This document shows positions 20,817-42,594 of a DNA stretch of 64,000 bases, in pieces. Origin of the DNA: Sphingomonas changnyeongensis (GTDB taxonomy: Bacteria; Pseudomonadota; Alphaproteobacteria; Sphingomonadales; Sphingomonadaceae); NCBI RefSeq assembly GCF_009913435.1, contig NZ_CP047895.1, forward strand, positions 1,434,501 to 1,498,500, given 5' to 3'. Every line of letters starts with the position of its first letter. Position 1 is the stretch's first letter. Position numbers and translations under genes: made by a program. Below the pieces are notes generated by a model. That model worked only from the letters and a program-made list of their open reading frames with translations. It was not told the origin of the DNA and made no database searches.

Positions 20817-20849
20817 CGGGCCGGGGGCACATGCCTCCCGGCCCGTTTT
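20817..20849 (+). terminator. terminator/attenuator-like hairpin before the GTA portal gene
   Basis: The stem CGGGCCGGG (20817-20825) pairs with CCCGGCCCG (20837-20845), followed by TTTT. It points towards the portal gene, 57 bp upstream of its ATG, so it is not the end of the divergent cyclophilin gene. It could end a short leader RNA or gate transcription of the GTA operon. Confidence 0.7.
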
Positions 20850-20906
20850 CGTGCCGGCGATGCCGGGCCGCCTGGGCGGGGCCGGCCCGGGCGATGGGGA
20901 GCAGTC

Positions 20907-22696: not shown

Positions 22697-22713
22697 CAGC
22701 CAAGGAGACAGTG

Positions 22714-23781: not shown

Positions 23782-23868
23782 CCGGCACCGGCTTCAGGCC
23801 CTGCCACGCCAATCGGGGTGGCAGGGCCGGACCCGTCCCTGTTTTCCCATCTTCTGGAGATGCCCGCC

Positions 23869-24135
23869 ATGTCCGATCCCTTTGCCGGGCTGGTCGACGG
23901 GGTGAGCGCGCCGGCCACCCGCGCGCTTGCCGTCACGCCCAGCGACACCGTTCCGCTGCCCCATCTGCCCAAGGCGCTGTTCATCGGCGGGGGTGGCGAT
24001 CTGGTCGCGCGCGGCATGAACGACGACCGCGACACCGTGTTCCGGGGGCTGGCCGCCGGCGCGATCCTGCCGTTCCGCGCCAGTTTCGTCCGCGCGACCG
24101 GCACCAGCGCGACCCATATCGTGGCGCTTTGCTGA
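23869..24135 (+). CDS. GTA head-spike base protein (Rcc01079/GhsA-like)
   Basis: This 88-residue beta-rich protein has the pattern LAVTPSDTVPLPHLPKALFIG, then GGGGDLVARG, VFRGLAAGAILPFR, and VRATGTSATHIVAL. This strongly resembles the spike base family named after Rhodobacter capsulatus rcc01079, the protein that holds GTA head spikes on the capsid vertices. In Rhodobacter the gene lies away from the main cluster; here it follows the capsid gene. Its stop overlaps the start of the large fibre gene (TGATG), implying coupled translation. The family call is from recalled pattern, not a search. Confidence 0.78.
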   Translation: MSDPFAGLVDGVSAPATRALAVTPSDTVPLPHLPKALFIGGGGDLVARGMNDDRDTVFRGLAAGAILPFRASFVRATGTSATHIVALC

Positions 24136-26411
24136 TGACGGCGATCGGCTTTTCAGTCGGGCTGGGGGTGAGGCCGCGCCGCATCGCGGCGGGGACAGCG
24201 CCCGCGCCTTCGCCGACCCCGACGCCCTCACCCGCGAGCACCATCACCGGCCTGACCGTGCTGGGTGCAGGGCCGCTGCCCGATGGCGCGGATGCGGCGG
24301 ACGGCAATGGCTGGGTGGCGCGGGTGACGCTGCCCGAGATTGCCGGGGCGACCTTCGACCCGACGCGCATCGTGCTCACGGTCCGCGATCCGGGGTTCGA
24401 GGATGGCGTCGCCGTCACCCGCACGCGCACCGTGCGCGGCGGCGCGGTCATCCGGCGGCAGGCCCCCAACCAGACGCAGCGGCTGGCCGGGGCGACGGCC
24501 GGGGTGATGACCGTCCATTTCTCGCTGGCCGAGGATGTCTATGCCGGCTCGACGCTGGTCTCGGCGACGGCCGAGGCCGGCTATTATGGCGCGGCACCGG
24601 CGGGCAGCGTGGCGGGGCTCGCCAACCAGTCGAGCCTTGCCTATCCCAAGCCGCTGGCCGGCGCGCTCAACCGGCAGGAGGAGCGGGCGACCGGCAGCGC
24701 CTTTGCCTTCGAGCTGGTCGCCGTCCACACCCATGCGATGCGCGGCCGGCAGGTCGATTGCATCAAGGCGATCGCGCGCGACGAGAGCGGCAACACGACG
24801 CCCGAGAGCGTCATCACCCAGCCGGCGCTGTCCGACTTCCAGACCGCCGGCACCCGGCCCGAGGCCTATAAGGGCTCGATCCCGCTTGCCCCGCTGATCC
24901 AAGGGCAGACCTGCCAGGTCGAATGGGATGTCTATCCGCATATCGGCGATGCCTCGGCGGTGCTGCGCGTGGCGAGCGACGGCTTTGCCTGGCCGACGCC
25001 GCGCCCGCACACGCCGCTGCGCTTCCTGTGCGACAAGACCGGGGGCTATGGCGGCGCGCATGCCGCCGTCAGGATCGGGGCGAGCGGCGGCGCGGTGGCC
25101 GCGAGCCGCGCGAGCGCCGAGGCGACGCCTTATCCGACCATCCCCGCCGCGCTTGCCGCCGTGCGCGCCTGGAACGCGGCCAATAAGGGCCATGACGATC
25201 ACAGCGGCGCGACCATCTGGCTGATGGAGGCCTTAGCCGGGGCGGGTGCCGACCATGTCGTCGGATCGACCTCTGCGGTTGCGGCTGGCAAATGCTGGAC
25301 CGAGATCCGGGTCAGCCCCGGCGCGACCGGCCCGGTGCGCGCGGTGGTCAACGAGATCGTAGGCGTGGCCGACAAGCTCTGCTTTGCCTGCCCGGTCCAC
25401 AATAGCGGCTTTACCGCGCTCGACGGCGGCGGCGGTGTCAGCCGGATGCTGGCGTTCGAGGGGATGACGCTCAGCCAGGGCGGCAGCCTGCAGATCAACT
25501 ATCAGGTGCCGCTCGTCTATTGGCGCAACGTGACGGTGACGAGCGGGCCGAACCCGCTGTTCACCTTCTCCAACGTCCGCACCAGCGCGGCGCTGGCGCT
25601 GGGCGTGACGCTGCAAGCGGGCGTGTCGGGGCTGGTCGCGCCCTATATCGTCGCCGGGTGCCGGTTCGACGGCCAGCGGCTGGGCGAGTTCCCGACCAGC
25701 CATCCCAATGCGGTCACGCATGACGGGGCGATCATCGTCAGCAGCGCGTTCATGCGTCTGTCGGGGCCGTGCCAGCTGGGGTTCCAGCGCCCGGTTGCCC
25801 TTGGCATCGGGATGCTCAATGTCGTCATCGAGCGTGCTGCCGCCGCCCCGTCCGAACCCGCGCTGCAGATCGGTGCCGACGATGCGGTCCAGCCGATCGC
25901 CAATGTCGTGCTACATTACCTGACGGTGCCGGGGGTCGATATCGCGGGGCGTTCGAACCTTGCCTATACCGACGCGGCCGGCGCAGCCGGGGTGGTCAAG
26001 CGGCTGAGCCGGCGCGGCTCGATCTTCAGCCAGCTCAATATCAAGACCGATACGTTCGGGACCGGCACGGGACGCACCGGCAACTGGCATCCGCGCTATG
26101 GCGTCGGATCGGCCTGGAATGTCGTTGCGCGCGGCGACACCGATGGCGCAACCGCGCCCGATGCCAGCGGCGGCAACTGGATCGGTGAATATGTCGATCC
26201 GGGCACGGTACTGCAGGCGGGTATCGCCTTCGTGTCCGACCAGAGTGGTCAGGCCAGGCCGGGGGGCGGCGATTACCGCTTGAGCGGTGCCGGCTCGCCC
26301 GCCTTGGGCCGCATCCCGGCAGGCCGGGCGCTTGCGGCGTTCGATCTGGCCGGCACCGCCCGCCGCAACGACGGCACCGGCGCGGCCGGGGCGTTTGAAG
26401 CAACTGTCTGA
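24135..26411 (+). CDS. GTA head-spike fibre, beta-helix type
   Basis: This 758-residue protein follows the spike base in translational coupling, so it is probably the capsule-binding head fibre (functional counterpart of GhsB). Residues 1-34 form a short N-terminus ending in a Pro/Thr/Ser linker (APAPSPTPTPSPAS); the rest is shared with the prophage fibre at 36294-38837. The body is rich in short beta strands, Gly and Asn, with repeated stretches such as VTHDGAIIVSSAFMRLSGP and VLHYLTVPGVDIAGRS that fit a right-handed parallel beta helix of the pectate-lyase kind. No catalytic residues could be assigned. It replaces what is usually a direct capsid-to-adaptor junction. Confidence 0.7.
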   Translation: MTAIGFSVGLGVRPRRIAAGTAPAPSPTPTPSPASTITGLTVLGAGPLPDGADAADGNGWVARVTLPEIAGATFDPTRIVLTVRDPGFEDGVAVTRTRTVRGGAVIRRQAPNQTQRLAGATAGVMTVHFSLAEDVYAGSTLVSATAEAGYYGAAPAGSVAGLANQSSLAYPKPLAGALNRQEERATGSAFAFELVAVHTHAMRGRQVDCIKAIARDESGNTTPESVITQPALSDFQTAGTRPEAYKGSIPLAPLIQGQTCQVEWDVYPHIGDASAVLRVASDGFAWPTPRPHTPLRFLCDKTGGYGGAHAAVRIGASGGAVAASRASAEATPYPTIPAALAAVRAWNAANKGHDDHSGATIWLMEALAGAGADHVVGSTSAVAAGKCWTEIRVSPGATGPVRAVVNEIVGVADKLCFACPVHNSGFTALDGGGGVSRMLAFEGMTLSQGGSLQINYQVPLVYWRNVTVTSGPNPLFTFSNVRTSAALALGVTLQAGVSGLVAPYIVAGCRFDGQRLGEFPTSHPNAVTHDGAIIVSSAFMRLSGPCQLGFQRPVALGIGMLNVVIERAAAAPSEPALQIGADDAVQPIANVVLHYLTVPGVDIAGRSNLAYTDAAGAAGVVKRLSRRGSIFSQLNIKTDTFGTGTGRTGNWHPRYGVGSAWNVVARGDTDGATAPDASGGNWIGEYVDPGTVLQAGIAFVSDQSGQARPGGGDYRLSGAGSPALGRIPAGRALAAFDLAGTARRNDGTGAAGAFEATV
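24237..26399 (+). repeat. 2163-bp inverted duplication, GTA copy
   Basis: This segment matches 36306-38468 in reverse complement over equal length (2163 bp each). It starts at the codons for STITGLTVLGAG and ends at the codons for GAFE just before the stop. By eye the protein copies differ at roughly 45 of 721 positions, with differences clustering in the last 200 residues. The copies are separated by about 9.9 kb. Confidence 0.93.
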
Positions 26412-26483
26412 TCCGGAAAGCCTTTTGGCTGGCGATCAACATCTGGTCCGGGCGGCATGCGCCGTCCGGCGGGGGAGGCGCAT

Positions 26484-27038
26484 GTGCTGACATTGGCGGA
26501 AATGGCCGCCGCGGACCTCGCCGCGGCACGAGCGGCCGCGCGCGATCATGCGCGGATCACCCAGTCCGGCGAGGAGACCGTGCTCGACGCGCAGATCCTC
26601 GCCGCGCTTGGCCTGTGCGAGGCGTTTTGCGGTTGTCAGATGCTGTCCCGCACCGCGGCGCAGATCCTGCCGGCGCGCGGCGACTGGCAGCGGCTGGCGG
26701 CCCGTCCGGTCGCCGCGATCCTCAATGTCGAGGGCATCCCGGCCGAGGGGGCGGGCTTTGCCCTGCCGGTCGATGCCTATGCGATCGACATTGACGAGGA
26801 CGGCACCGGATTGCTGCGGGTGATCGCGCCGGGGGCTGCCGGCCGGGTGCGCGTCCAGTATCGCGCCGGGCTGGCACCGGACTGGGCGGCGCTGCCCGCA
26901 CCCATCGCCCAGGGCATTGTCCGCCTGGCCGTTCATCTGTTTTCCAGCCGCGAGATGCCGGGCACGCCATCGGCGGCGCTGCCGCCTGCGGCGGTCGCGG
27001 CGCTGTGGCGGCCATGGCGCCGGATGGGGCTGGCCTGA
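26484..27038 (+). CDS. GTA head-tail connector/adaptor (gp6-like)
   Basis: This 184-residue, mostly helical protein starts VLTLAEMAAADLAAARAAARDHA, contains EAFCGCQ and GRVRVQYRAGLAPDWAALPAPIAQGIVRLAVHLF, and ends in a short Pro-rich segment. The helix-turn-beta order and the final helix match the phage head-tail connector (gp6) family that closes the portal. GTG 26484 was preferred over ATG 26457 because GGGGGAGG lies 5 bp before it. The fibre gene upstream ends 72 bp away. Confidence 0.8.
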   Translation: MLTLAEMAAADLAAARAAARDHARITQSGEETVLDAQILAALGLCEAFCGCQMLSRTAAQILPARGDWQRLAARPVAAILNVEGIPAEGAGFALPVDAYAIDIDEDGTGLLRVIAPGAAGRVRVQYRAGLAPDWAALPAPIAQGIVRLAVHLFSSREMPGTPSAALPPAAVAALWRPWRRMGLA

Positions 27039-27256
27039 TGGTCGGGCAGCGATTCCTGCCGGGGCTGGCCGCCCGCGCGGCGGCGCTGGCCGAGGCGAAG
27101 CGCGGGCGCGTGGCTGACCGGCTGGCCGAGGCGCTTGGCCGCGCCGGCATTCGCGCCCGGCGGATCCCGTCCGGGATCATCGTCAGCGGACACGGGCTGC
27201 GCCGCCGCTTCATCGTCGAACCCGCGTTGCGCGCGCTCAAGGGGCTGATCCGATGA
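27038..27256 (+). CDS. small head-tail joining protein (GTA gp7-position)
   Basis: This 72-residue basic protein begins by TGATG overlap with the previous stop. The N-terminal half is a charged helix (AARAAALAEAKRGRVADRLAEAL); the second half is beta-rich (IRARRIPSGIIVSGHGLRRRFIVEP). It resembles the short HK97 gp10-like joining proteins at this position in sphingomonad GTA clusters, much shorter than the usual 100 or more residues. Assignment is mainly by position. Confidence 0.55.
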   Translation: MVGQRFLPGLAARAAALAEAKRGRVADRLAEALGRAGIRARRIPSGIIVSGHGLRRRFIVEPALRALKGLIR

Positions 27257-28092
27257 CGACCCAGATACTGGTCGCGGCGATCATCGCCGCGCTTGAGGAT
27301 GATGCGGCGATCCGCGCGCGGGTGAATGGCGTGTTCGCCGGCCCGCCGCTGCGCGCCACGCCGCCCTGGATCGAGGTCGAACCGCCGCAATGGGCCGACT
27401 GGTCGGTCAAGGACGCGGCGGGGCGCGAGCTGCGCATCGCGCTGTGGGTGCGCGACGAGGGCGATGATCCGCGCCGGGCGGGCGATCTGGTCGATGCGGT
27501 CGATGCGGCGCTCACGCGCCTGCCGCGCCGCCTGCCGGGCTGGATGCTGGGCGGCGCGCAGATGATCCGCGTCCGGATGCTGCGCGAAGCGCGTGGCTGG
27601 GCCGGGCTGGTCGAACACCGGCTGCGGATGCTGGCCGATGGCGGGGCCCGGACGAGGCCCGTGCGAAACAAGGGAGACAAGGCGATGCCGATTGAACGCG
27701 GGAGCGCGTTTCTGCTCAAGATCAGCGATGGTGCGGCACCGCCCGCCTATCAGACCGTGGCCGGGCTGCGCACGACGCAGCTGAGCATCAATGGCGAAGC
27801 GGTGGTCGTGACCAACAAGGGGTCGGGCGGCTGGCGCGAATTGCTGTCGGGGGCCGGGGTCCGGTCAGTCTCGGTGTCGGGCGCGGGCGTGTTCACCGGT
27901 TCGGCGGCTGAGGCGCGGCTGAAGGCCCATGCGCTGTCCGGGACGCTCGCGGACTGCGAGTTGAGCTTTGAGGGCGGCGAGCGGATGCAGGGGCGCTTTC
28001 TCGTCGCGCGCCTTGATTATGCCGGCGATTTCAACGGCGAGCGCAGCTACACGCTTGCCCTTGAAAGCTCCGGCGCGGTGGCCGCGCTGTGA
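27253..28092 (+). CDS. in-frame fusion of DUF3168 (gp8) and TP901-1 major tail protein (gp9)
   Basis: This 279-residue open frame joins two normally separate proteins. Residues 1-130 are DUF3168, a tail terminator-like neck protein (PPWIEVEPPQWADWSVKDAAGRELRIALWV). Residues 145-279 are the TP901-1-type major tail protein. The joint RPVRNKGDKA is encoded by what looks like an untranslated spacer with its own ribosome-binding site. No stop codon is found in this frame between them. The DUF3168 stop may have been lost, so both a fusion and a free tail protein could be made. Confidence 0.75.
   Translation: MTTQILVAAIIAALEDDAAIRARVNGVFAGPPLRATPPWIEVEPPQWADWSVKDAAGRELRIALWVRDEGDDPRRAGDLVDAVDAALTRLPRRLPGWMLGGAQMIRVRMLREARGWAGLVEHRLRMLADGGARTRPVRNKGDKAMPIERGSAFLLKISDGAAPPAYQTVAGLRTTQLSINGEAVVVTNKGSGGWRELLSGAGVRSVSVSGAGVFTGSAAEARLKAHALSGTLADCELSFEGGERMQGRFLVARLDYAGDFNGERSYTLALESSGAVAAL
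27685..28092 (+). CDS. GTA major tail protein (gp9, TP901-1 family), internal start
   Basis: From ATG 27685 the same frame encodes 135 residues that form a complete major tail tube subunit: IERGSAFLLKISDG, AGLRTTQLSINGEAVVVTNKGSGGW, and SVSVSGAGVFTG to the FLVARLDYAGDFNGERSYTLALESSG end. The sequence AAGGGAGACAAGG lies just upstream at normal spacing, which argues that this start is used. Tail tube subunits polymerise around the tape measure, so the free form is needed even if the longer fusion is also made. Confidence 0.75.
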   Translation: MPIERGSAFLLKISDGAAPPAYQTVAGLRTTQLSINGEAVVVTNKGSGGWRELLSGAGVRSVSVSGAGVFTGSAAEARLKAHALSGTLADCELSFEGGERMQGRFLVARLDYAGDFNGERSYTLALESSGAVAAL

Positions 28093-28400
28093 GCGGGGCC
28101 AATCCCGTGCGCGGCGAGGCCAGCCTGCGCGTCGGCGCGGCCGATCTGGTGCTGCGGCCAAGCTTTGCGGCGCTGGTGGCGGCGGAGTCGGAACTCGGGT
28201 CGCTGTTTGCGCTTGTCGAGCGTGCCGCCGCCGGTCAGCTGACCCTGCAGGAGATGACTGCGCTGTTCTGGCACTGCCTGCGCGACCGGCCGGTGGAGCT
28301 GAGCCGCGAAGCGCTCGGCGAGGCGGTGGCGGCGGCCGGGCTTGCCGCCGCGACACCGGCGCTCGCCACGCTGCTGCGCCAGATCCTTGAGGGGCGCTGA
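28089..28400 (+). CDS. GTA gp10 family protein (GTA tail chaperone)
   Basis: This 103-residue protein overlaps the major tail stop (GTGA). The N-terminal half (GEASLRVGAADLVLRPSFAALVAAESELGSLF) matches the gene transfer agent gp10 family, which resembles the tail-assembly chaperones encoded after the major tail gene in siphophages. The C-terminal half is helical. GTG start at 28089. Confidence 0.8.
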   Translation: MSGANPVRGEASLRVGAADLVLRPSFAALVAAESELGSLFALVERAAAGQLTLQEMTALFWHCLRDRPVELSREALGEAVAAAGLAAATPALATLLRQILEGR

Positions 28401-28402
28401 CC

Positions 28403-28603
28403 ATGGCCGGGCGTGGCTTTTCCGCCGCCGCCGCGCAGCTGGCGGGGCACGCCCAGGCGATGCTCGGCTGGCGGCCCGATGAGTTCTGGGCGGCGACGCC
28501 TGCCGATCTGGCGCTGGCGGTGGCCGGTCTGGTCCCGACGGCGGAGGTGCCCGCCGATGGCGCGCTGCTCACAAGGCTGAAGGAGCTGTTTCCCGATGGA
28601 TGA
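28403..28603 (+). CDS. tail assembly chaperone, DUF2376-like
   Basis: This 66-residue protein contains GWRPDEFWAATPADLALAVAGL, the characteristic core of the short chaperone that follows gp10 in GTA clusters (W-x-PxEFW-x-xTPxEL pattern). In siphophages the equivalent protein is often made by frameshifting; here it has its own ATG three bases after the gp10 stop. It overlaps the tape measure start by 8 bp. Confidence 0.8.
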   Translation: MAGRGFSAAAAQLAGHAQAMLGWRPDEFWAATPADLALAVAGLVPTAEVPADGALLTRLKELFPDG

Positions 28604-29183
28604 GGAAATCGAACGGCTGGTGATCGGCGTGCGCGCCGACACCGCCGGCTTTGCCCGCGATCTGGAGGCGATGCGCGCCCAGCTCGAAGGGCCGTTCGGC
28701 GACGGGGTGGCGCGCGCCGGGCGCGGGCTGGAGGCGGTGCTGGCCCGCGCGGTGCGCACCGGCCGGCTGGGCTTTGAGGATCTGAAGCGCGTGGCGTTGC
28801 AGGTGCTGGGCGAGATCGCCGCATCCGCCGTCACATCGGGCATCGGCGCAATCCTGGCCGGCATCGGTGCTGGCGGGGGCGGGACGGGCAGGGGCGGGAT
28901 TGCCGGCGGTCTGCTCGGCGGGCTGACCGGCGGCCTGATCGGCGGACTGCCGGGCCGCGCGACCGGCGGGCCGGTCAGCCCCGGCCAGGCCTATCTGGTC
29001 GGTGAGCGGGGGCCGGAACTGTTCGTGCCGACCATGTCGGGCCGGATCGCGCCCGGCGCTGCGCCGGGCCGCGACGTGCGCATCGCGATCACCGTCAACG
29101 CGCCCGGCGGCACCGATCAGGCGCAGGCGCTGGCGCGGTCCAGCCGCCAGATCGCGCGCGAGGTCCGCCGGGCGCTCGGCTGA
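28596..29183 (+). CDS. GTA tape measure protein (short)
   Basis: This 195-residue protein has an N-terminal helical part (EIERLVIGVRADTAGFARDLEAMRAQLEG), a central Gly/Ile-rich stretch (about residues 75-125) that is membrane-like, and a C-terminal segment ATGGPVSPGQAYLVGERGPELFVP, a well-known end of small tape measure proteins. GTA tails are very short, in line with the length. The final IAITVNAPGGTDQAQALARSS region is typical of the family. Confidence 0.85.
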   Translation: MDEEIERLVIGVRADTAGFARDLEAMRAQLEGPFGDGVARAGRGLEAVLARAVRTGRLGFEDLKRVALQVLGEIAASAVTSGIGAILAGIGAGGGGTGRGGIAGGLLGGLTGGLIGGLPGRATGGPVSPGQAYLVGERGPELFVPTMSGRIAPGAAPGRDVRIAITVNAPGGTDQAQALARSSRQIAREVRRALG

Positions 29184-29220
29184 ACCACAGACCGCGCCGG
29201 CGGGCGGCAGGGAGGAACGG

Positions 29221-31509
29221 ATGGGGTATTGGCTGGCCCGGCAACGCAGCGTCCAGGAGACGAGCTTTATCAAGCGGTTCGATCCGCAATATTGGACGGT
29301 CGATTTTCCGCGCCCGATGATGGCATCGGTGGTGACCACCGCGCCCGATGCGCTGCGCGTCGATGCGGTGTTTTACGCGCGCGACGAACTGGCCGGGCTG
29401 ATCTGGTGGTCCGAGGATCGGCATGATCATCCGCTGCTCGCCTATGAAACGCGGCGCGATTATCGCGGCTGCCGGCTGCGCTTCCGGTGGCGGGCGGCTG
29501 GGGTGGTGCCGCTCGATGCGGTCAATGGCCCGACCCTCACCATCGAGGGCCGCGATGCGGCCGGGCAGGCGCGGGCATGGTATGTCCGGCTGTGGAATTA
29601 CGCCGAGGGCAGCCCCGAGGATGCGGCGATCACGCTTGATTTCGGGGATCTGGCTGGCGGGTTCCTGCTGCCGGACGAGGCCGATCCGGTCTTTGCCGGC
29701 GATATCGACCGGATGTTCATCTCGCTGGTGCCGCCGGGCTATGCGCCCGCAGGCGGTGCGCTGCCCGCGCCGGTCGAGGCCTTTGTCGAACTGACGGAGA
29801 TCGCCTGTGACGGCCCGGCTTCGGTGCTGGAGATCGGCGACGTGCTGGTGCCGCCGCACAGCCTCAGGATCGCGACCGGCTATGACGACGCCTATAACGT
29901 CACCCCCGCGCGGCTGCTGCGGACGATCCTGCACCTCGGCTATCGCGGGACCATCAACCATTATGTCGGGATGAGCCATTATTTCCGCCTGGCCGGCGGG
30001 CTGGTGAGCGGGGCTGACGCCGATCCGCTGTGTGTGCCCTGCACGGCATGGCACCGCGATCTGGCGGCGCGGGCGCGGGCGCTTGATTATGATCTGATCT
30101 GGTCATTGAGCTATGAGCTGTTCGACGCCCATTGCCCGGAAGACTGGAAGCAGCGTGCGGCCAATGGCGATCCGGCGCTGACCGGCTGGTCGCCGCCATC
30201 GACGCTGTTGTCGCCGGCCAGTGCGGCGGCAATGGCCTATCTGCAGGCTGTGGGTCGCGCCTTTGCCGTCATTGCGCGCGATGCGGGCCTGACGATGCGC
30301 TTTCAGGTCGGGGAGCCGTGGTGGTGGGTCGGCCGGGACTTGCGGCTGCACATCTATGACGCCGCCGCGCGCGCCGCCCTGGGTCCCGATCTGCCAGTGA
30401 TCGACGATGTCGGCGCGCCGATGGGGGCAGCCGAGCGGGCGCTGCTCGACCGCGCCGGGGCTTTGCTTGCGGCATCGACAGCCGATCTGGTCGCCGCCGT
30501 CCGCACCGTCGTGCCGGATGCCGAGGCGCTGATCCTGCTCTATCTGCCGACGATCTTTTCAGCGCCCGAACTGCCGCGCGCGCTCGCCCCGCTGGGCTGG
30601 CGCAAGCCCGCCTTCGATGTCCTCCAGCTCGAGGATTATGAATGGGTCACGGACGGGCTGACCGCGCGCAGCGCGCCGGGGCTGGCGGAAATGGGGACGC
30701 GGCTCGGCTATCCGCTTGAGGAGCAGCATTATCTGAGCGGCTTTGTGCTGCGGCCCGAGGATCGCGGCCAATGGGCGCCGATTGCGGCGGCGGCGCGCGC
30801 GGCGATGGCGCGCGGCGTCGCGCAGACCTTTGTGTGGGCGCTGCCGCAGGTGATCCGCGACGGCTTTACCTGGTTTCCGGAGGAAGAGCGCATGGATGCT
30901 TTCGACGATGTGGTCTTTCCGCTCGAGATCGGGCGCGAGGCGAGCATGAGTGCGATGACCTCGACCGCCATTGCCAGCGGCGCCGGCGGCCATGAACAGC
31001 GCAGCGCCGAATGGGCCGAGGCGCGGCTGCGCTTCGATGCCGGGCCGGGCGTTCGGTCGGAAAGCGATCTTGCTGATCTGGTGGCGTTTTTTCGTGGACG
31101 GCGCGGCCCGGCACGGGCGTTTCGGTTCCGGGATCCGTTCGATGACCGGTCCTGTGCTGCCGCCGCTGCGCCCGATCCGGCCGACCAGCTGATCGGGACG
31201 GGCGACGGCCGCACCAGCCGGTTCCCGCTCATCAAGCGCTATGGCGATGTCACGCGGCGCATCACCCGCCCGGTTGCGGCGACCGTCAGGGTGGCGGTGG
31301 CGGGCGATGAAGTGACCGGCTTTGCGCTCGAAGCGGGCGGGGTGGTCGCGTTCGACCGGCCCCCTCCCGCCGGTGCGGCGGTAACCGCCGGTTTCCGTTT
31401 CGACGTGCCGGTGCGCTTTGCCGAGGACCGGCTGGACATTGCCCGCGCGACATTCCTGGCCGGCGAGGCCCCGAGCGTCCCGCTGATCGAGGTGAAGGAA
31501 GACCGATGA
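29221..31509 (+). CDS. sheath-like/glycosidase-like N-terminal region fused to DUF2460 distal tail protein (gp12)
   Basis: This 762-residue protein has two parts. Residues 1-556 form a large domain starting MGYWLARQRSVQETSFIKRF, with TIM-barrel-like features and several Trp (EPWWWVGRDLRLHIYD, LQLEDYEWVTDG, TFVWALPQVI). I believe relatives are called non-contractile tail sheath proteins in sphingomonads, but I cannot confirm that here. Residues 558-762 are DUF2460, the distal tail protein of GTA particles (FDDVVFPLEIGREASMSAM to VPVRFAEDRLDIA). A strong internal ribosome-binding site lies at the border, so fusion and free DUF2460 may both be made. ATG 29221 follows a GGGAGGAACGG site. Confidence 0.75.
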   Translation: MGYWLARQRSVQETSFIKRFDPQYWTVDFPRPMMASVVTTAPDALRVDAVFYARDELAGLIWWSEDRHDHPLLAYETRRDYRGCRLRFRWRAAGVVPLDAVNGPTLTIEGRDAAGQARAWYVRLWNYAEGSPEDAAITLDFGDLAGGFLLPDEADPVFAGDIDRMFISLVPPGYAPAGGALPAPVEAFVELTEIACDGPASVLEIGDVLVPPHSLRIATGYDDAYNVTPARLLRTILHLGYRGTINHYVGMSHYFRLAGGLVSGADADPLCVPCTAWHRDLAARARALDYDLIWSLSYELFDAHCPEDWKQRAANGDPALTGWSPPSTLLSPASAAAMAYLQAVGRAFAVIARDAGLTMRFQVGEPWWWVGRDLRLHIYDAAARAALGPDLPVIDDVGAPMGAAERALLDRAGALLAASTADLVAAVRTVVPDAEALILLYLPTIFSAPELPRALAPLGWRKPAFDVLQLEDYEWVTDGLTARSAPGLAEMGTRLGYPLEEQHYLSGFVLRPEDRGQWAPIAAAARAAMARGVAQTFVWALPQVIRDGFTWFPEEERMDAFDDVVFPLEIGREASMSAMTSTAIASGAGGHEQRSAEWAEARLRFDAGPGVRSESDLADLVAFFRGRRGPARAFRFRDPFDDRSCAAAAAPDPADQLIGTGDGRTSRFPLIKRYGDVTRRITRPVAATVRVAVAGDEVTGFALEAGGVVAFDRPPPAGAAVTAGFRFDVPVRFAEDRLDIARATFLAGEAPSVPLIEVKEDR
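30892..31509 (+). CDS. DUF2460 distal tail protein (gp12), internal start
   Basis: ATG 30892 in the same frame is preceded by GGAGGAAGAG at three to four bases and begins MDAFDDVVFPLEIG, the usual DUF2460 N terminus. The 205-residue product has the normal family length. It would form the distal tail ring between tube and hub. Confidence 0.6.
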   Translation: MDAFDDVVFPLEIGREASMSAMTSTAIASGAGGHEQRSAEWAEARLRFDAGPGVRSESDLADLVAFFRGRRGPARAFRFRDPFDDRSCAAAAAPDPADQLIGTGDGRTSRFPLIKRYGDVTRRITRPVAATVRVAVAGDEVTGFALEAGGVVAFDRPPPAGAAVTAGFRFDVPVRFAEDRLDIARATFLAGEAPSVPLIEVKEDR

Positions 31510-32324
31510 GCGCGATTGCGGATACGGCGCTGGTGCATCTGGCGCTGTGCTGGCGCATCGAACGGCGCGACGGCGTCGCCATCGGCCTGACCGGCCATGA
31601 TCGTCAACTGGAGATTGACGGCTTTGTCTATCGTGCCGCGCCCGGCCTGACCCCGTCGGCGATCGAGCAGGTCACGGGCGGCAGGCCGGGCGACGGGGCG
31701 ATGGAAATCAGCGGCGCGCTGACCGCCGATGCGCTGGGTGCCGACGATCTGGGCGCAGGCCGCTGGGACGGGGCGGCGGTCACGCTGATCGTGGCGGACT
31801 GGACGGCCCCGGCGCGCCATGTCGTGATCGCTGAAGGGCGGCTTGGTCCGGTAAGCGCGGGCCAGGGGCGGTTCACCGCCGAACTGGAAGGGCCGGAGAT
31901 GCTGCTGGCCCGGCCCGTCGTCGAGGAGGTGACGCCGGAATGCCGGGCAGCCCTGGGTGATCGCAGGTGCCGGGTCGACCTGGCCGGTCGCACACGGATC
32001 GGCCATGTGCGCAGCGCCGACGGCCCCATTGTCGATCTCGATATCGTCGAGCCGGTGGCCAATGGCTGGGGCTGGGGGCAGCTGCGCTGGCTTGACGGGC
32101 GCAATGGCGGGCTGAGCCAGCTGGTGCTGGCGAGCAGCGGCGCGCGTGTCACCCTGGCTGCCCCGCCGGCATTTCCGCCCTTGGCGGGCGAGCGGGTGGT
32201 GATGATCGAGGGATGCGACCGGCTGCTCGCCACCTGCTCTGTCCGGTTCGGCAATGCCCGCAACTTCCAGGGCGAGCCGCATGTCCCCGGCAATGATCTG
32301 TTGACGCGTTATCCGCCGCCATGA
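31506..32324 (+). CDS. GTA baseplate hub protein, DUF2163 (gp13)
   Basis: This 272-residue protein has the DUF2163 pattern: LCWRIERRDGVAIGLTGHDR near the N terminus, and a C-terminal domain with four cysteines in ECRAALGDRRC and GCDRLLATC followed by RFGNARNFQGEPHVPGNDLL. In the Rhodobacter GTA structure the hub protein binds an iron-sulphur cluster; the four Cys here are consistent with that. It overlaps its neighbours by 4 bp on both sides (ATGA), so translation is coupled. Confidence 0.9.
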   Translation: MSAIADTALVHLALCWRIERRDGVAIGLTGHDRQLEIDGFVYRAAPGLTPSAIEQVTGGRPGDGAMEISGALTADALGADDLGAGRWDGAAVTLIVADWTAPARHVVIAEGRLGPVSAGQGRFTAELEGPEMLLARPVVEEVTPECRAALGDRRCRVDLAGRTRIGHVRSADGPIVDLDIVEPVANGWGWGQLRWLDGRNGGLSQLVLASSGARVTLAAPPAFPPLAGERVVMIEGCDRLLATCSVRFGNARNFQGEPHVPGNDLLTRYPPP

Positions 32325-32701
32325 CCGAGATTGTTGTGGCAGCACGCGCGCTGGTGGGCGTGCGCTTTCGCCTGCATGGCCGCGATCCGGCGCACGGCCT
32401 GGACTGTATCGGGCTGGTGGCGCTGGCGCTCGGGCGGACTGCGCCCGGCGGCTATGGCTTGCGCGGCGGCGATCCGGCGCGGGTCGCCGCCGCCCTTGCC
32501 GAGGCCGGGCTGGTCGCGGCCCCGGCGCAGGATCCGCAGCCTGGCGACATTCTGCTGATGCGGCCCGGCGCGGCGCAGCTGCATCTTGGGGTGCGGACGG
32601 CGACCGGGCTGATCCATGCCGATGCGGCGCTGGGCCGGGTGGTTGAACGGCCCGGCCCCATTCCCTGGGAGGTGATCGGATCATGGCGACGCTTGTTCTG
32701 A
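32321..32701 (+). CDS. GTA NlpC/P60 peptidoglycan peptidase (gp14)
   Basis: This 126-residue papain-like peptidase acts in the tail tip and probably opens peptidoglycan during DNA delivery. The catalytic Cys lies in HGLDCIGL and the His in AAQLHLGV, with LIHADAALGRVVE after it. It lacks a signal peptide, as expected of a particle component. It overlaps gp13 and gp15 frames. Confidence 0.9.
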   Translation: MTEIVVAARALVGVRFRLHGRDPAHGLDCIGLVALALGRTAPGGYGLRGGDPARVAAALAEAGLVAAPAQDPQPGDILLMRPGAAQLHLGVRTATGLIHADAALGRVVERPGPIPWEVIGSWRRLF

Positions 32702-34839
32702 CCTCGCTTGGCGCGGTGCTGGGGCCGGTTGGTGCCGCCATCGGGGCGACGCTTGGCCAACTTGTCGACCGGCGCATTTTCGGGCCGCGCGGCGCATCGG
32801 GGCCGCGCCTTCAGGATCTCAGGATCCAGACATCGTCCTATGGCGCACCAATCCCGCAGCTGTTCGGCACGGTCCGTGTCGCCGGCACCTTGATCTGGTC
32901 GACCGACCTCATTGAAACGCGCAACCGGCAAGGGGGCGGCAAGGGGCGGCCCAGCACGACCAGCTACAGCTATTCGGCGTCCTTTGCGGTGCTGCTGTCC
33001 GGCCGGCGGGTGGGCGCGGTGCGCCGGATCTGGGCCGATGGGAACCTGCTGCGCGGCGCGGGGGGCGACTGGAAGGGCGAAATCGGTGGTTTTCGCCTGC
33101 ACGACGGACGTGCGGATCAGCCGCCCGATCCGCTGATCGCCGCGCTGGAGCCTGCCGCACCTGCCTATCGGGGGCGTGCCTATGCGGTATTCGAGCAATT
33201 GCAGCTGGCACCGTTCGGCAACCGCATTCCGGCGCTGACGTTCGAGGTGGAGGCTGATCCCGGCCCGGTGATGCTCGACGATGTGCTGGCCGAGCTGGGC
33301 GGCGGGGCGGTTGTCGGGCAGGGGGGTGATGCGGTCAGCGGGTTGGTCGTCGCCGCCGACACGCTCGGTCAGGCGGTCGAGACGTTTGCCGATCTGCTGC
33401 CGGCCATGCCGGTGCCGGCTGGCCGGGGCCTGCGGATCGGCGCGGCGGGCCCGCCCGTCACCCTGGGTCCGGATGAAATCGGGATCGAGGATCGGCAGAC
33501 GCGCAGCTCCGCTGCCGGCCCGACCGCGCTGTCGCTTGGCTATTTCGATCCGGCCCGGGACTATCAGGCCGGGGTGCAGCGTGCCCGGCGGCCGGGTGCG
33601 GGGGAAAGCCAGGCGCGCATCGATCTGCCTGTCACGCTCGACGCCGGGGCGGCGCGGCAGCTTGCCGAGCGGGCGATTGATCGCAGGCGAACGGGGATGC
33701 GGCAGCGGACGCTGCGCTGCGGCTGGCGACGCCTAACGCTTGCGCCGGGCGATCTGGTGCAGACCCCCGATGAGGCGCGGATCTGGCGCGTCACCGAACG
33801 GCGGATCGGCCGCGACGGCGTGATGCTGAGCCTTGTCGCCATCGCCCATGGCCTGACCGCCGATCTGCCTGCGGCTCCCGGCCGGCCCGCCCTGCCGCCG
33901 GACGCGGTGCATGGGCCGACGCGCGTCCATCTGCTCGATCTGCCGCCGCTCGATGATGCGCCGGTCGCGCGACCCCGTCTGCTGGTGGCAGCCGCCGGGG
34001 CGATGCCGGGATGGCGGCGCGCCGCGCTGCTGATCGGGCGTGCCGCCACCGCAGAGCTGCAGCCGATCGGCGATACCGTCGCGCCGGCGCTGATCGGCAC
34101 CGCGCTGGCGGCGCTGCCTCCGGCCGATCCGGGGCTGTTCGACCTGCGGCACAGCGTTGACGTGGCAATGGCCCATGCCGGGATGATGCTGGCGGATGCC
34201 GATGACGGCCGGCTGATTGCGGGGGCAAATCTGGCGCTCATCGGGGACGAGCTGGTGCAATATGGCATGGCCCGGCCGCTGGGCGAGGGGCGCTGGCGCC
34301 TTTCCCGCCTCGTGCGCGGGCGGCGCGGCACCGGCGCGGCGGTGGCGGGGCACCGCGCGGGGGAGCGGTTTTTGCTCATCGAGCCGGATGCGCTGCGCGT
34401 CCATGAACCGCCGGTCGATGCCATCGGTGCGGACATGGTGGTGCTGGCCAGCGGGATCGGCGACCCGCAGCCGGTCGAGAGCGTGGCCCGCGGCATCGGT
34501 GCTGCCGTGCGGCCGCTGCCGCCCGTGCATCTTGCCGCCCGGCGTCGCGCGGACGGCGGCTTTGACCTGTCCTGGATCCGGCAGAGCCGCGAAGGCGGGC
34601 GCTGGATTGACGGCACAGACGCGCCGCTTGGCGAGGAGCGCGAGGCTTATCGGCTTGAGATTGTAACGGAATCCGGTCCTGCGCGCAGCTGGCTGAGCGA
34701 CCGCGCGTTTCATGTCTATGGCCCCGATGACGTCGCGCGCGACCGGCTGGCCGGTGTCAGCGTGACGATGCGGGTCGTGCAGCTGGGCAGCTTTGCCGCC
34801 TCGCAGCCCGCCCAGCTGCGGATCGCGCTGGGAGCCTGA
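32683..34839 (+). CDS. GTA gp15 tail tip/host-specificity protein
   Basis: This 718-residue megatron-type tail tip protein starts ATLVLTSLGAVLGPVGAAIGA, followed by the conserved GPRLQDLRIQTSSYGAPIPQLFGTVRVAGTLIW. The middle has the phage tail hub (GTA TIM-barrel successor) region; the C terminus ends in QLGSFAASQPAQLRIALG, a normal family end. Shorter than Rhodobacter gp15 (about 1300 aa) but usual for sphingomonads as far as I recall. The prophage begins two bases after its stop codon. Confidence 0.9.
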   Translation: MATLVLTSLGAVLGPVGAAIGATLGQLVDRRIFGPRGASGPRLQDLRIQTSSYGAPIPQLFGTVRVAGTLIWSTDLIETRNRQGGGKGRPSTTSYSYSASFAVLLSGRRVGAVRRIWADGNLLRGAGGDWKGEIGGFRLHDGRADQPPDPLIAALEPAAPAYRGRAYAVFEQLQLAPFGNRIPALTFEVEADPGPVMLDDVLAELGGGAVVGQGGDAVSGLVVAADTLGQAVETFADLLPAMPVPAGRGLRIGAAGPPVTLGPDEIGIEDRQTRSSAAGPTALSLGYFDPARDYQAGVQRARRPGAGESQARIDLPVTLDAGAARQLAERAIDRRRTGMRQRTLRCGWRRLTLAPGDLVQTPDEARIWRVTERRIGRDGVMLSLVAIAHGLTADLPAAPGRPALPPDAVHGPTRVHLLDLPPLDDAPVARPRLLVAAAGAMPGWRRAALLIGRAATAELQPIGDTVAPALIGTALAALPPADPGLFDLRHSVDVAMAHAGMMLADADDGRLIAGANLALIGDELVQYGMARPLGEGRWRLSRLVRGRRGTGAAVAGHRAGERFLLIEPDALRVHEPPVDAIGADMVVLASGIGDPQPVESVARGIGAAVRPLPPVHLAARRRADGGFDLSWIRQSREGGRWIDGTDAPLGEEREAYRLEIVTESGPARSWLSDRAFHVYGPDDVARDRLAGVSVTMRVVQLGSFAASQPAQLRIALGA

Positions 34840-34840
34840 A

Positions 34841-34960
34841 TGTGACCCGCCAATAAATCTATCGAGATAAACGGCCCGGGATTTGGCGGGATACCGTGGG
34901 ACAAAATGGCGGATTTCCGCCGTTCGGAGGCGCGAAACGGGCGCCACATGTTTTCTGGCG
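34841..34960. promoter_or_regulatory. candidate prophage left end with transposase-binding repeats
   Basis: The terminal TGTGACCCGCCAATAAAT contains, on the minus strand, TATTGGCGGG. Related copies follow on the plus strand as ATTTGGCGGG (about 34875) and AAATGGCGGA (about 34902). Subterminal repeats of both orientations within the first 100 bp are what MuA-type transposases bind. Assignment rests on position and repeats only. Confidence 0.5.
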
Positions 34961-35106
34961 CGTCGCTTCCCAGATCCGCAGTCTGCTGTGGTGGAAAATG
35001 GCTGAAAACCGCGGTGCATCCCCATTGCAATTTGGGCCACTTCCCAGTTTGCGAAACAACTATGCTCGCCAGCCATAAAAACCCCGCGAAAACAACAGGA
35101 TGAGGG

Positions 35107-36294
35107 CTAGACGGCGCGCGCGCCAGAAATGGGAGCCGCCGCTTGCCGCCGCAGCGTGCGAAGCCTGCTGTCGATTTGCCGGATACGCCGTGAGATCGCC
35201 GCGCGTTGCGCGTCCAGGTCGCCGCGCTCGGCGGTCAGCCTCGCGATCTCGTCCATAAGCGGATCAGTGGCCGCGCTCTTTTTCCGGTGGCGCGCCAGCC
35301 ACGCTGAGGCAATCTGGTCGGCCTGTGCCAGGGTGATCTGCGGCGAGACGGTAAAGCCTTCAACCTGCGCGTTGTATCGGCCAGGTAGTAGCAGTCGCGA
35401 TGCTGTCGAGCGGCGGAACTCAGCCCCATCTTTACGGGCGATGTTGATGCGAGCTTCAACGACCTGTTGACCGCCCGGAGGCTCGCTGGGCGCGGGACGG
35501 CCACCCTGGATCATCAGCGCTTGCACGTCCTCGATCACGAGGCCGCCTCCCGCTACGTCGAGTGCCAGCGCGTCCCAGCCCGCCCCCAGCAAGATGTCGC
35601 GCTTGAAATGGATGTCACGATGCGGCCGACCCGCCCTGAGTGCGCAGTCATCGAGATCTTGAAAATAGATGCCTTGCACCTTGTTGTCCGGGTCGCAGAA
35701 GATCAGATTGTCTTCAAACAATCCACGTTCGCAGCCTTCTTCGTATCCAGGGACCGCCATGAGCTGCACCGCATCGCCGTGCGGTGACACATGGGCAGAA
35801 AGGGTCGGGTCGAAAGCCAAGTGGAAGCCGCGAAAAATGTTGCGGCGCAACACGAAGTTTTTCAGGACTGCGCCCTGTAGCCCGAAATTGCCGAGGTTCG
35901 CGAAATCGCAATCCTCGATGGCCAGGCCGTCCACCCTGTTGATCAAAGCGCCCTGATTGCCGTCGCCAAGTCGGCAGCGCCGGAGCGCAATCCGCTCGCC
36001 ACGCTCCACATACAATCCGCGCGCGTAGCGCTCGTACTCGGACACCACCACGGCCTCGAAATGGCTGTCCACAAACTCGATGCTGGCGCACTGATGGACC
36101 TCAACAGCGTTCGTCCACCCATTTCGGGCGCGTTGATCGGCGCGAAAATGCCCGGTGATCCGCACGGGCTTGTCGACCGGGAAGCGGTAGCCATGCAGGC
36201 TGACACCCGTGAGCGGCGCGGCGGATTCGATATGCTCGCCGCCGACGCACTTCCGGAGCGCGGCCGCGAGATCCTGTGCTGTCGTGATCCGCAT
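35107..36294 (-). CDS. prophage beta-helix fibre/spike protein with C-terminal coiled coil
   Basis: This 395-residue protein's first 270 residues show repeated short strands such as RCRLGDGNQGALINRVDGLAIEDC, FANLGNFGLQG, and LFEDNLIFCDPDN that are typical of right-handed parallel beta-helix proteins binding or cutting polysaccharide. The last 55 residues (DEIARLTAERGDLDAQRAAI and after) form a heptad coiled coil, probably for trimerisation. It is translationally coupled (TGATG) to the large fibre upstream. It is the last gene before the prophage left end. No lyase residues could be assigned. Confidence 0.6.
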   Translation of the reverse strand: MRITTAQDLAAALRKCVGGEHIESAAPLTGVSLHGYRFPVDKPVRITGHFRADQRARNGWTNAVEVHQCASIEFVDSHFEAVVVSEYERYARGLYVERGERIALRRCRLGDGNQGALINRVDGLAIEDCDFANLGNFGLQGAVLKNFVLRRNIFRGFHLAFDPTLSAHVSPHGDAVQLMAVPGYEEGCERGLFEDNLIFCDPDNKVQGIYFQDLDDCALRAGRPHRDIHFKRDILLGAGWDALALDVAGGGLVIEDVQALMIQGGRPAPSEPPGGQQVVEARINIARKDGAEFRRSTASRLLLPGRYNAQVEGFTVSPQITLAQADQIASAWLARHRKKSAATDPLMDEIARLTAERGDLDAQRAAISRRIRQIDSRLRTLRRQAAAPISGARAV

Positions 36295-38837
36295 CACACC
36301 GTCCTTTCGAACGCCCCGGCCGCGCCGGTGCCGTCGTTGCGCCGGGCGGCGCCGGCCAGATCGAATGCCGCGAGCGCTCCGCCCGCCGGGATGCGGCCAT
36401 AGGCCGGCGAGCTGGCGCCACTCAGGCGGTAGTCCCCGTTGCCCGGCCTGGCCTGGCCGCTCTGGTCGGACACGAAAGCGACGGTCGCCGGCACCACGGT
36501 GCCCGGATCGACATATTCGCCGATCCAGTTGCTGCCGCTCGCATTGGGCGCGGTCGCACCATTGGTGTCGCCCAGCGTGATGACGTTCCAGGCCGATCCG
36601 ACGCTGTAGCGCGGATGCCAGTTGCCGGTTCGGCCCGAGCCAGTCCCGAAGGTATCGGTCTTGATGTTGAACTGGCTGAAAAGGCAGCCGCGCCGGCTCA
36701 GCCGCTTGACCACCCCCGCCGCGCCGGCCACGTCGGCATAGGCAAGGTTCGAACGCCCCGCGATGTCGACCCCCGGCACCGTCAGGTGATGCAGCACGAC
36801 ATTGGCGATCGGCTGGACCGCATCGTCGGCACCGATCTGCAGCGCCGGTTCCGACGGGGCCGATGCCGCGCGCTCGATGACGACGTTGAGCATTCCGATG
36901 CCAAGGGCGATCGGACGCTGGAACCCGAGCTGGCACGGCCCCGACAGACGCATGAACGCGCTGCTGACGATGATCGCCCCGTCATGCGTGACCGCATTGG
37001 GGTGGCTGGTCGGGAACTCGCCCAGTGACTGGCCGTCGAACCGGCACCCGGCGACGATATAGGGCGCGACCAGCCCCGACACGCCCGCCTGCAGCGTCAC
37101 GCCCAGCGCCAGCGCCGCGCTGGTGCGGACGTTGGAGAAGGTGAACAGCGGGTTCGGCCCGCTCGTCACCGTCACGTTGCGCCAATAGACGAGCGGCACC
37201 TGATAGTTGATCTGCAGGCTGCCACCCTGGCTGAGCGTCATCCCCTCAAACGCCAGCATCCGGCTGACACCACCGCCGCCGTCGAGCGCATGGAAGCCGA
37301 GCGAGGCCACCGGGCAGGCAAAGCAGAGCTTGTCGGCCACGCCCACGATCTCGTTGACCACCGCGCGCACCGGGCCGGTCGCCCCGGGGCTGACGCGGAT
37401 CTCGGTCCAGCACTTGCCGGCCGCAACCGCAGAGGTCGATCCGACGACATGGTCGGCACCCGCCCCGGCCGAGGCCTCCATCAGCCAGATGGTCGCGCCG
37501 CTGTGATCGTCATGGCCCTTATTGGCCGCGTTCCAGGCGCGCACGGCGGCAAGCGCGGCGGGTATGGTCGGATAAGGCGTTGCCTCGGCGCTCGCGCGGT
37601 TTGCCGCCACCGCGCCGCCGCTCGCCCCGATCCTGACAGCGGCATGTGCGCCGCCATAGCCCCCGGTCTTGTCGCACAGGAAGCGCAGCGGCGTGTGCGG
37701 GCGCGGCGTCGGCCAGGCAAAGCCATCGCTCGCCACGCGCAGCACCGCCGAGGCATCGCCGATATGCGGATAGACCTCCCATTCGACCTGGCAGGTCTGC
37801 CCCTGGGTCAGCGGGGCAAGCGGGATCGACCCCTTATAGGCCTCGGGCCGGGTGCCGGCGCTCTGGAAGTCGGACAGCGCCGGCTGGGTGATGACGATCT
37901 CGGGCGTCGTGTTGCCGCTCTCGTCGCGCGCGATCGCCTTGATGCAATCGACCTGCCGGCCGCGCATCGCATGGCTGTGGACGGCGACCAGCTCAAAGGC
38001 AAAGGCGCTGCCGGTCGCCCGCTCCTCCTGCCGGTTGAGCGCACCGGCCAGGGGCTTGGGATAGGCAAGGCTCGACTGGTTGGCGAGCCCCGCCACGCTG
38101 CCCGCCGGTGCCGCGCCATAATAGCCGGCCTCGGCCGTCGCCGACACCAGCGTTGAGCCGGCATAGACATCCTCGGCCAGCGAGAAATGGACGGTCATCA
38201 CCCCGGCCGTCGCCCCGGCCAGCCGCTGGGTCTGGTTGGGGGCCTGGCGCCGGATAACCGCGCCGCCGCGCACGGTGCGCGTGCGGGTGACGGCGACGCC
38301 ATCCTCGAACCCGGGATCGCGAACCGTGAGCACAATGCGCGTCGGATCGAAGGTCGCCCCGGCAATCTCGGGTAGCGTCACCCGCGCCACCCAGCCATTG
38401 CCGTCCGCCGCGTCCGCGCCATCGGGCAACTGCCCCGCGCCCAGCACGGTCAGGCCGGTGATGGTGCTTGATGGGGCCGGGCTGGGTGTGGGGGCCGGGC
38501 TGGGCGTGGGCGAAGGCGTCGGAGCAGCCGCTGCCAGGAAAGAGAGCGTTTCCGCCGTCTCGCGCCGCCCGTCTGCGCTGGTTGCTCGAACCTTGAGCTC
38601 GTATCTGGTGCCGACGATCGACGCGGAGGCCCCACGACTGACTCGACCGCTGGCCGCATCGAAGGCCAGCTGCCCGGGTATGCCGCCGATTGCCGCCAGC
38701 ACCGTCGCAGGCCCGAACGGGCGATTGACGTCGGCAATGATGGCGCCTTGGGCGGCGCTCGCCAGAAAGGCATTGGCCGACGCGCGAAGAGATGCGCCTG
38801 CAGATCCGACCGTGGCTCTTGAGAGCACGCTCCTCAT
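36294..38837 (-). CDS. prophage spike/fibre sharing its body with the GTA head fibre
   Basis: This 847-residue protein's residues 1-103 form an N-terminal module absent from the GTA copy (FGPATVLAAIGGIPGQLAFDAASG and TRYELKVRATSADGRRETAE, an Ig/cadherin-like strand pattern). A Pro/Ser/Thr linker follows, then about 720 residues nearly identical to the GTA fibre. The N terminus should attach it to the phage particle, the shared body to the cell surface. Start ATG overlaps the stop of the 107-aa gene (ATGA). The gene is on the leftward packaging arm after MuF. Confidence 0.7.
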   Translation of the reverse strand: MRSVLSRATVGSAGASLRASANAFLASAAQGAIIADVNRPFGPATVLAAIGGIPGQLAFDAASGRVSRGASASIVGTRYELKVRATSADGRRETAETLSFLAAAAPTPSPTPSPAPTPSPAPSSTITGLTVLGAGQLPDGADAADGNGWVARVTLPEIAGATFDPTRIVLTVRDPGFEDGVAVTRTRTVRGGAVIRRQAPNQTQRLAGATAGVMTVHFSLAEDVYAGSTLVSATAEAGYYGAAPAGSVAGLANQSSLAYPKPLAGALNRQEERATGSAFAFELVAVHSHAMRGRQVDCIKAIARDESGNTTPEIVITQPALSDFQSAGTRPEAYKGSIPLAPLTQGQTCQVEWEVYPHIGDASAVLRVASDGFAWPTPRPHTPLRFLCDKTGGYGGAHAAVRIGASGGAVAANRASAEATPYPTIPAALAAVRAWNAANKGHDDHSGATIWLMEASAGAGADHVVGSTSAVAAGKCWTEIRVSPGATGPVRAVVNEIVGVADKLCFACPVASLGFHALDGGGGVSRMLAFEGMTLSQGGSLQINYQVPLVYWRNVTVTSGPNPLFTFSNVRTSAALALGVTLQAGVSGLVAPYIVAGCRFDGQSLGEFPTSHPNAVTHDGAIIVSSAFMRLSGPCQLGFQRPIALGIGMLNVVIERAASAPSEPALQIGADDAVQPIANVVLHHLTVPGVDIAGRSNLAYADVAGAAGVVKRLSRRGCLFSQFNIKTDTFGTGSGRTGNWHPRYSVGSAWNVITLGDTNGATAPNASGSNWIGEYVDPGTVVPATVAFVSDQSGQARPGNGDYRLSGASSPAYGRIPAGGALAAFDLAGAARRNDGTGAAGAFERTV
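36306..38468 (-). repeat. 2163-bp inverted duplication, prophage copy
   Basis: Reverse complement partner of 24237-26399, with the same length and no net insertions or deletions. The homology begins right after the Pro/Ser/Thr linker codons and ends at the last few codons of the gene. Confidence 0.93.
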
Positions 38838-42593: not shown

Positions 42594-42594
42594 G

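Follow-up and report, generated by a model that had tools for sequence, protein, structure and literature searches.

In the prevailing view, gene transfer agents (GTAs) are passed on with the host genome, whereas phages are transient in it. Among phages, tail-fibre modules are exchanged and receptor-binding proteins are mosaic: a constant anchor is kept and the receptor-facing part is replaced. Mu-like phages (for example those of the D3112/B3 type) encode MuA, MuB, Gam, Mor and GemA and have TG...CA ends flanked by a 5-bp target-site duplication (TSD); RcapMu is also a transposable phage. For the GTA of Rhodobacter capsulatus (RcGTA), Hynes et al. reportedly described in 2016 a virus-mediated transfer of recognition loci, at the level of whole genes, across the Rhodobacterales. 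Here we describe a stretch of 64,000 nucleotides from the Sphingomonas changnyeongensis chromosome (contig NZ_CP047895.1, positions 1,434,501 to 1,498,500; the window), in which the fibre gene of a GTA-type cluster and the spike gene of an adjacent Mu-like prophage share the same body. For the RcGTA head-spike genes rcc01080 and rcc01079, the available part of one article records matches in phages RcapMu and RcapNL (PMC8601537); that of another states that the R. capsulatus spike binds the capsule (PMC10218006), and that of a 2026 preprint presents a detachable RcGTA tailspike lacking full phage homologues (PMC13420450). The claim, made in a preliminary description of the window, that no GTA spike was known to have been described as sharing its adhesin so directly with a resident prophage is too strong in view of the RcapMu and RcapNL matches. 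Titles and abstract openings of the literature on GTAs with Mu-like insertions, transposable phages, gene conversion and sphingomonad fibre transfer contained no description of a case such as this one.

The features on which the comparison rests are:

23818..24135, plus strand: head spike base of the RcGTA Rcc01079 (GhsA) family (NF048002, E 1.4e-28; PDB 6tb9 'Head spike base Rcc01079', E 2.7e-9)
24135..26411, plus strand: GTA-type head-spike fibre gene; its reading frame opens with TTG at 24129, and the ATG at 24135 overlaps the spike-base stop codon
24237..26399, plus strand: shared spike body, GTA copy, an inverted repeat 93.7% identical to 36306-38468
34836..34840, no strand: TSD CTGAA, overlapping the stop codon of g15 and repeated at 72052 after the right prophage end
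34841..72051, no strand: Mu-like prophage of 37,211 bp, running beyond the window end at 64000; left end TGTGACCCGCCAATAAAT, right end ...GGCGCGCTACA
36294..38837, minus strand: prophage spike gene, with an N-terminal part of its own (about 123 residues including the linker) followed by the shared body
36306..38468, minus strand: shared spike body, prophage copy, inverted repeat partner of 24237-26399
38834..39157, minus strand: small gene directly upstream of the prophage spike gene, with a 4-bp overlap

The two body copies, one in each spike gene, are inverted with respect to each other; each measures 2163 bp and encodes ~720 residues. The blastn alignment (93.7% identity) spans 2165 columns with two gap openings and E 0, and in the ungapped register the copies, equal in length, differ at 137 of 2163 bases. 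A repeat search recovers the arms in a single register, as 24199-25396 with 37309-38506 (95%) and 25406-26417 with 36288-37299 (91%). Identity sets in within a Pro/Ser/Thr linker and extends as far as the stop codon. The two N-termini, of about 36 residues in the GTA fibre versus about 123 in the prophage spike, are unrelated. The nucleotide alignment, which the preliminary description had called for, thus agrees with the inverted 2163-bp module, about 94% identical by eye, and with the linker junction and unrelated N-termini that it reported. No other full copy is present in the 3.0-Mb genome, where two extra matches are short (80 and 54 bp, at 76 and 80%). Both reading frames are open, with a nonsynonymous divergence (dN) of 0.031 and a synonymous divergence (dS) of 0.182 between the copies (ratio 0.17). 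The differences are unevenly spread, with 60 in the 1503 bases before position 25740 and 77 in the 660 after it (Fisher p 1.5e-10). A dense patch of 13 differences is located at 25397-25433, the first 1.5 kb being ~97% alike elsewhere; it is perhaps a small tract from a third source.

It had also been proposed that recombination between the copies would invert the 10 kb between them. The distance holds, at about 9.9 kb; of the inversion there is no trace, the gene order in the window being that of relatives without the prophage. In the second genome described below, the contig breaks fall inside the repeats, so its contigs give no evidence either way.

The ends by which the two copies are attached differ. 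Directly 5' of the GTA fibre gene, which most likely starts at the ATG at 24135, is the spike-base gene, whose product matches RcapNL at 48%. The prophage spike is preceded by the small gene 38834-39157, present in five of five aligned members of the Mu-like clade (the other four are 57-93% identical to it) and likely a spike base or adaptor of the prophage. In both vehicles the spike gene is overlapped at its start by a small gene of 105-107 codons. A relationship of the spike base and the phage small gene (orf38834) to each other, or to the siphophage C-terminal extension discussed below, found no support. Relatives of the small gene occur at at least 44 viral-contig loci (L258-L301), three of which, among the matches listed, have Mu-like neighbours (gpF, TerL); it is possible that they form a wider spike-adaptor family.

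The GTA fibre has no Pfam, PHROG or NCBIfam family match and no PDB sequence match. Its AlphaFold2 (AF2) model, with a predicted local distance difference test score (pLDDT) of 89.6 and a predicted template-modelling score (pTM) of 0.90, shows FN3/Ig-like domains and, in the body, a right-handed beta-helix resembling those of carbohydrate enzymes, which is predicted to bind or cut surface polysaccharide. Foldseek returned mostly antibody and FN3-type domains from the PDB list, and three matches at E <= 0.001, with low TM-scores, from the viral list.

The prophage is complete-looking, with two ends and a TSD. It has the MuA/MuB transposition genes, Gam, Mor and a Mu-type portal, and its TG...CA ends are flanked by a 5-bp duplication (CTGAA here, GCCAG in UBA1000). 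A truncated Mu-like element using GTA capsids is ruled out by the capsid and tail genes of the right arm and by the right end at 72051.

Sphingomonas sp. UBA1000 (G276), a fragmented, 80%-complete metagenome-assembled genome (MAG), contains the same pair of GTA and prophage bodies. In one of its contigs, two inverted body ends enclose GTA tail genes; a second reaches from Mu-like genes into the first residues of the body. A search of the MAG for the GTA capsid gene found none. The four copies from the two genomes can be compared over the last 653 nt of the body, where identity within genomes (87.4 and 89.6%) exceeds that across genomes (84.2 and 85.1%). At 37 sites the copies group by genome, at 15 by vehicle and at 0 in the crossed manner, and the first two classes are segregated along the sequence (p 1.3e-4; 0/1000 permutations). 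Likeness within genomes thus exceeds likeness across species, in tracts, as in gene conversion. The simplest reading would be an old duplication followed by conversion in each genome, part of the 3' end being spared and keeping the older split between GTA and phage; conversion between the copies is likely to be ongoing. Between the two genomes, the dS of Mu genes ranges from 0.12 to 1.5, a mosaic (orf39161 and orf44060, which overlap other genes, were left aside). A single ancestral prophage insertion common to this genome (G000) and UBA1000 is ruled out by their different insertion points and TSDs.

The body is matched in 9 of 298 genomes of the host family, strongly in just four, all of the genus of the window and including its own genome; four of the six genomes of the genus carry it. 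In two of these (G081 and G149) it occupies the same GTA position and the prophage terminase is absent. Twenty loci from viral collections contain the body: ten lie beside GTA genes, two are Mu-like (one being the UBA1000 population), one belongs to a temperate siphophage (with terminase, portal, capsid, primase, repressor and endolysin), and seven have no vehicle assigned. Loci L057, L321 and L337 (one IMG/VR record), L154 (a UBA1000 contig) and L019 (100% identical to a UBA1000 contig over 10,037 bp) were not counted as further cases; L303 and L306, whose identity values equal those of G081 and G149, probably represent these two genomes. A metagenomic protein of 1093 residues (P0011) combines the spike body with a listed head-tail connector domain (PF05135) and may be a fibre and an adaptor in one. 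The search for the body across GTA loci and phages that the preliminary description had suggested yields carriers of both kinds.

Trees of the body were calculated from 65 rows, after the partial rows P0049 and P0050 had been dropped, and from 46 rows, after the removal of 19 of the 65 (unclear rows, duplicates and long branches). Rows from loci with GTA genes have a demonstrated GTA context, which for the rest was inferred from a short N-terminus. The prophage body is nested among GTA-type bodies; in the 65-row tree it pairs with the GTA body of the same genome (support 89/70), and the two group with P0003 (100/100), which is 91% identical and has a short GTA-like N-terminus. Two further Mu-like bodies lie outside, on long branches whose placement is flagged as unsure. 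Nine fibres have a common C-terminal extension (42-73% alike), and their bodies are scattered among GTA-type bodies: the extension label changes six times on the tree, all forced by starred branches (shuffled mean 8.3), and a single clade of extension-type bodies is rejected by the approximately unbiased (AU) test. The bodies of L017, a GTA locus, and L018, the siphophage locus, from the same metagenome, are 78% alike. It appears that bodies of this kind have been swapped several times between related phages and GTA clusters, and exchange of the spike body between the GTA-type cluster and phages is well supported by these sequences. The preliminary description had suggested that a GTA and a temperate phage exchange a surface-recognition module by recombination; the shared, exchangeable body and the incongruent trees uphold the exchange, recognition being a predicted function only. 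The pattern it had named as speaking against exchange, a near-universal body with a separate phylogeny for each vehicle, is not what we observe: within the family the body was matched in the 9 genomes above, the GTA tail marker (a non-contractile tail-sheath protein, NCTSP) is found in 80 of 119 family genomes, 76 of which have a single match, and the extension-type bodies do not form one clade.

Four members of the Mu-like clade, which shares the left-end pattern TGTGAC..G.CAATAA, are inserted in one orientation near the GTA 3' end, at four points no more than about 0.7 kb from it. Here the insertion is at the g15 stop codon; in UBA1000 it is within the DUF2793 gene, after codon 132; in G299 it is 8 bp beyond the UBA1000 point, and in G298 within g15, after about codon 635. 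The contigs of G298 and G299 contain the left end only, hence no readable TSD. In G081 and G149 the gene following g15 is a relative of the DUF2793 gene that is found beyond the prophage here. Among 160 gpF loci from two collections, 82 with more than 6 kb after gpF, GTA genes flank two (L056, which is G298, and L058, which is G299); the UBA1000 fragments end inside the prophage. The end pattern occurs in 4 of 397 family genomes: this genome and UBA1000, both at the GTA, a distant Mu-like element without GTA genes in the flank fetched (G122), and G132, a chance match without Mu genes. Among 396 genomes of the order it finds three of those same genomes, and the backward-pattern control gave 0 among the matches listed. 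A gpF scan of 84,980 species returned UBA1000 at 90% and the next match at no more than 51%, with no other close member. No distant Mu-like relative was seen at a GTA in stretches fetched for 10 genomes, which may not reach the prophage ends. The fibres of the other clade members are unlike the prophage spike or about 32% identical to it.

Taken together, it is quite probable that a Mu-like lineage took up a GTA-type head-spike body and that homologous recombination kept re-copying it between prophage and GTA. The observed basis consists of two copies with different attachment ends, the spike base before the GTA copy, the prophage ends and TSD, the pair in a second species, and the incongruent trees. 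Linker and body could themselves supply the homology that crossover or gene conversion requires, with each vehicle retaining its anchor and swapping only the surface-facing part. The anchor would be the spike base plus about 36 residues in the GTA, the small upstream protein plus about 123 residues in the Mu-like phage, and the C-terminal extension in the siphophage. Both particles would face the same changing host surface, each copy, GTA or prophage, serving as a matched template for the other, and the position of the prophage beside the GTA cluster may ease exchange. Several points weigh against repeated copying from the GTA. The conversion is read from patterns in two genomes, one of them the fragmented MAG. 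The pair is separated from P0003 with a support of only 89/70, the placement of long rows (L059 and L314 among them) is flagged as unsure, and the root, and with it the direction, is not fixed. The near relative P0005 lacks the short N-terminus, and P0003, P0004 and P0005 are known without gene context. The extension label is somewhat clustered (9 of 500 shuffles gave as few as six changes), the AU group was chosen after the tree had been seen, and phage context is shown for one of the nine extension-type fibres (L018, which is P0026) and inferred for eight. The GTAs of G298 and G299 lack a fibre between capsid and adaptor, so that GTA adjacency is independent of the shared body. The GTA-type terminase, finally, is frame-broken and the only one found in the genome; we therefore write of a GTA-type cluster, not of a functional GTA, and particle production is putative.

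The other explanations fare less well. The 15 vehicle-wise and 0 crossed sites suggest that the split predates the separation of the two genomes, as it would had a phage captured the GTA body once, long ago, with only drift and no further exchange since; but the 37 sites and the overall identities group the copies by genome, mostly elsewhere in the body, divergence within this genome is strongly uneven and the two prophages have different insertion points, making a single capture unlikely. Replacement of the GTA body in this lineage by that of a Mu-like phage deserves as little credence. In its favour, the root is not determined, P0005 without a short GTA-like N-terminus is close by, and bodies of the family occur in several phages; however, the nearest outside rows, P0003 and P0004, have short GTA-like N-termini (contexts not seen), the GTA loci of G081 and G149 carry the gene at the same place, and other fibres of the Mu-like clade resemble the body distantly or not at all. 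Transfer from GTA to phage is the likely direction. An assembly artefact or contamination, the former already a concern of the preliminary description (as collapse), is very improbable: UBA1000 is fragmented and its contigs are broken by the repeat, but the copies in this two-contig genome differ by 6% with intact frames, both prophages have TSDs, and an independent assembly contains the same pair. As for the insertions, target preference of the Mu-like clade for the GTA end is suggestive. One might tentatively imagine a transposable-phage lineage that homes on the GTA 3' end and copies the neighbouring spike body to stay tuned to the host surface, using the GTA as a receptor library and sometimes breaking the tail-fibre or g15 gene on landing. 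That the four insertions reflect chance or collection bias, virus collections perhaps keeping prophage and GTA as one contig, is possible to a similarly limited degree: a left flank is visible in only four members (a fifth, G300, ends inside the prophage), two of the four come from IMG/VR, and more distant relatives (G122, G257/SRS2) lack GTA genes in the fetched flanks. Chance is, however, at odds with the position at the GTA of both close members recovered by the end pattern in the family, with the lack of another close member in the gpF scan, and with the four distinct points in one orientation.

The remaining features of the cluster and the prophage are:

20802..22040, plus strand: GTA portal (PF04860, E 3.6e-72)
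22711..23781, plus strand: GTA major capsid protein (PF05065, E 3e-86; RcGTA capsid Rcc01687, E 1.1e-85)
26457..34839, plus strand: GTA tail genes (adaptor, terminator/tube fusion, gp10, short tape measure, NCTSP TIM-barrel with DUF2460, g13, g14, g15), by family matches
35107..36294, minus strand: second left-end prophage protein with a weak beta-helix match (PF13229, E 4e-4, below the family cut-off)
39313..44202, minus strand: Mu-type gpF, portal with C-terminal Acb1 domain, and TerL
44498..52360, minus strand: TerS, Mor, GemA, Gam, MuB and MuA
52780..61151, mixed strands: prophage right arm with repressor (plus), D12 methylase (minus), capsid E (plus) and tail tube (plus)

In the cluster, which lies downstream of the host genes gumN and L25, RcGTA-type genes for capsid, portal and tail follow the canonical order; the cluster is adjoined by the RcGTA spike base and a gene of DUF2793, a GTA tail-fibre family according to the available part of one article (PMC10883770). 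The prophage, which abuts g15, now separates the DUF2793 gene from it. Such clusters are widespread in the host family, mostly in single copy and without phage replication genes. No large terminase lies beside the portal; the sole match to the GTA-type terminase family PF03237 in the genome is ~0.3 Mb away, at about 1775.2-1776.5 kb (L048), in pieces in different frames. Eight GTA genes compared with UBA1000 have dN/dS ratios of 0.08-0.26, while the terminase of the neighbouring prophage is intact. GTA gp12 (29002-31509) is a non-contractile tail-sheath TIM-barrel protein fused to DUF2460, and the g15 gene has no TIM-barrel match in Pfam. Elsewhere, G200:C55 (L051) is a GTA remnant in which the terminase and the start of the portal are joined directly to the end of g15, the middle being gone. 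The prophage portal (40659-42608, minus strand) has a C-terminal Acb1 domain, directed against the cyclic-oligonucleotide-based antiphage signalling system (anti-CBASS; PF23474, E 1.7e-37, residues 419-562), and would likely unite a structural protein with an anti-defence domain. The Acb1 region is aligned in UBA1000, G298 and G299; the G300 match skips residues 410-553, the domain seemingly being absent there.

A host-range part passing between GTA and phage would link their host ranges. If passed on, it could let a GTA update its target recognition from phages, and a phage gain recognition of a new host from the GTA of that host. Paired copies in each genome form a natural experiment, one that allows the conversion tracts of one strain after another to be dated. 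Should Mu-like insertions prove to cluster at the GTA end, this would amount to a target preference of a kind we did not find in the titles and abstract openings of the literature surveyed.

Like RcGTA GhsA/GhsB (rcc01079/rcc01080), the locus has a fibre gene following a spike base, and the two bases belong to one family. It differs in that base and fibre lie inside the head-tail cluster, that the fibre matches no family or PDB sequence, and that its body is 94% identical in DNA to a second one in the same chromosome, next to a phage and with signs of conversion. As in the transfer of RcGTA recognition loci reportedly described by Hynes et al., recognition genes move between GTA and phages; here the swaps are at the level of the body, with separate anchors, and in the Sphingomonas group. 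In mosaic phage fibres, too, an anchor is kept and the outer part exchanged, whereas one of the partners here is a host-encoded GTA-type cluster. Compared with Mu-like phages of the D3112/B3 type, the prophage has two divergent arms and a portal with an Acb1 domain, and it belongs to a clade of which four members are inserted at the GTA 3' end.
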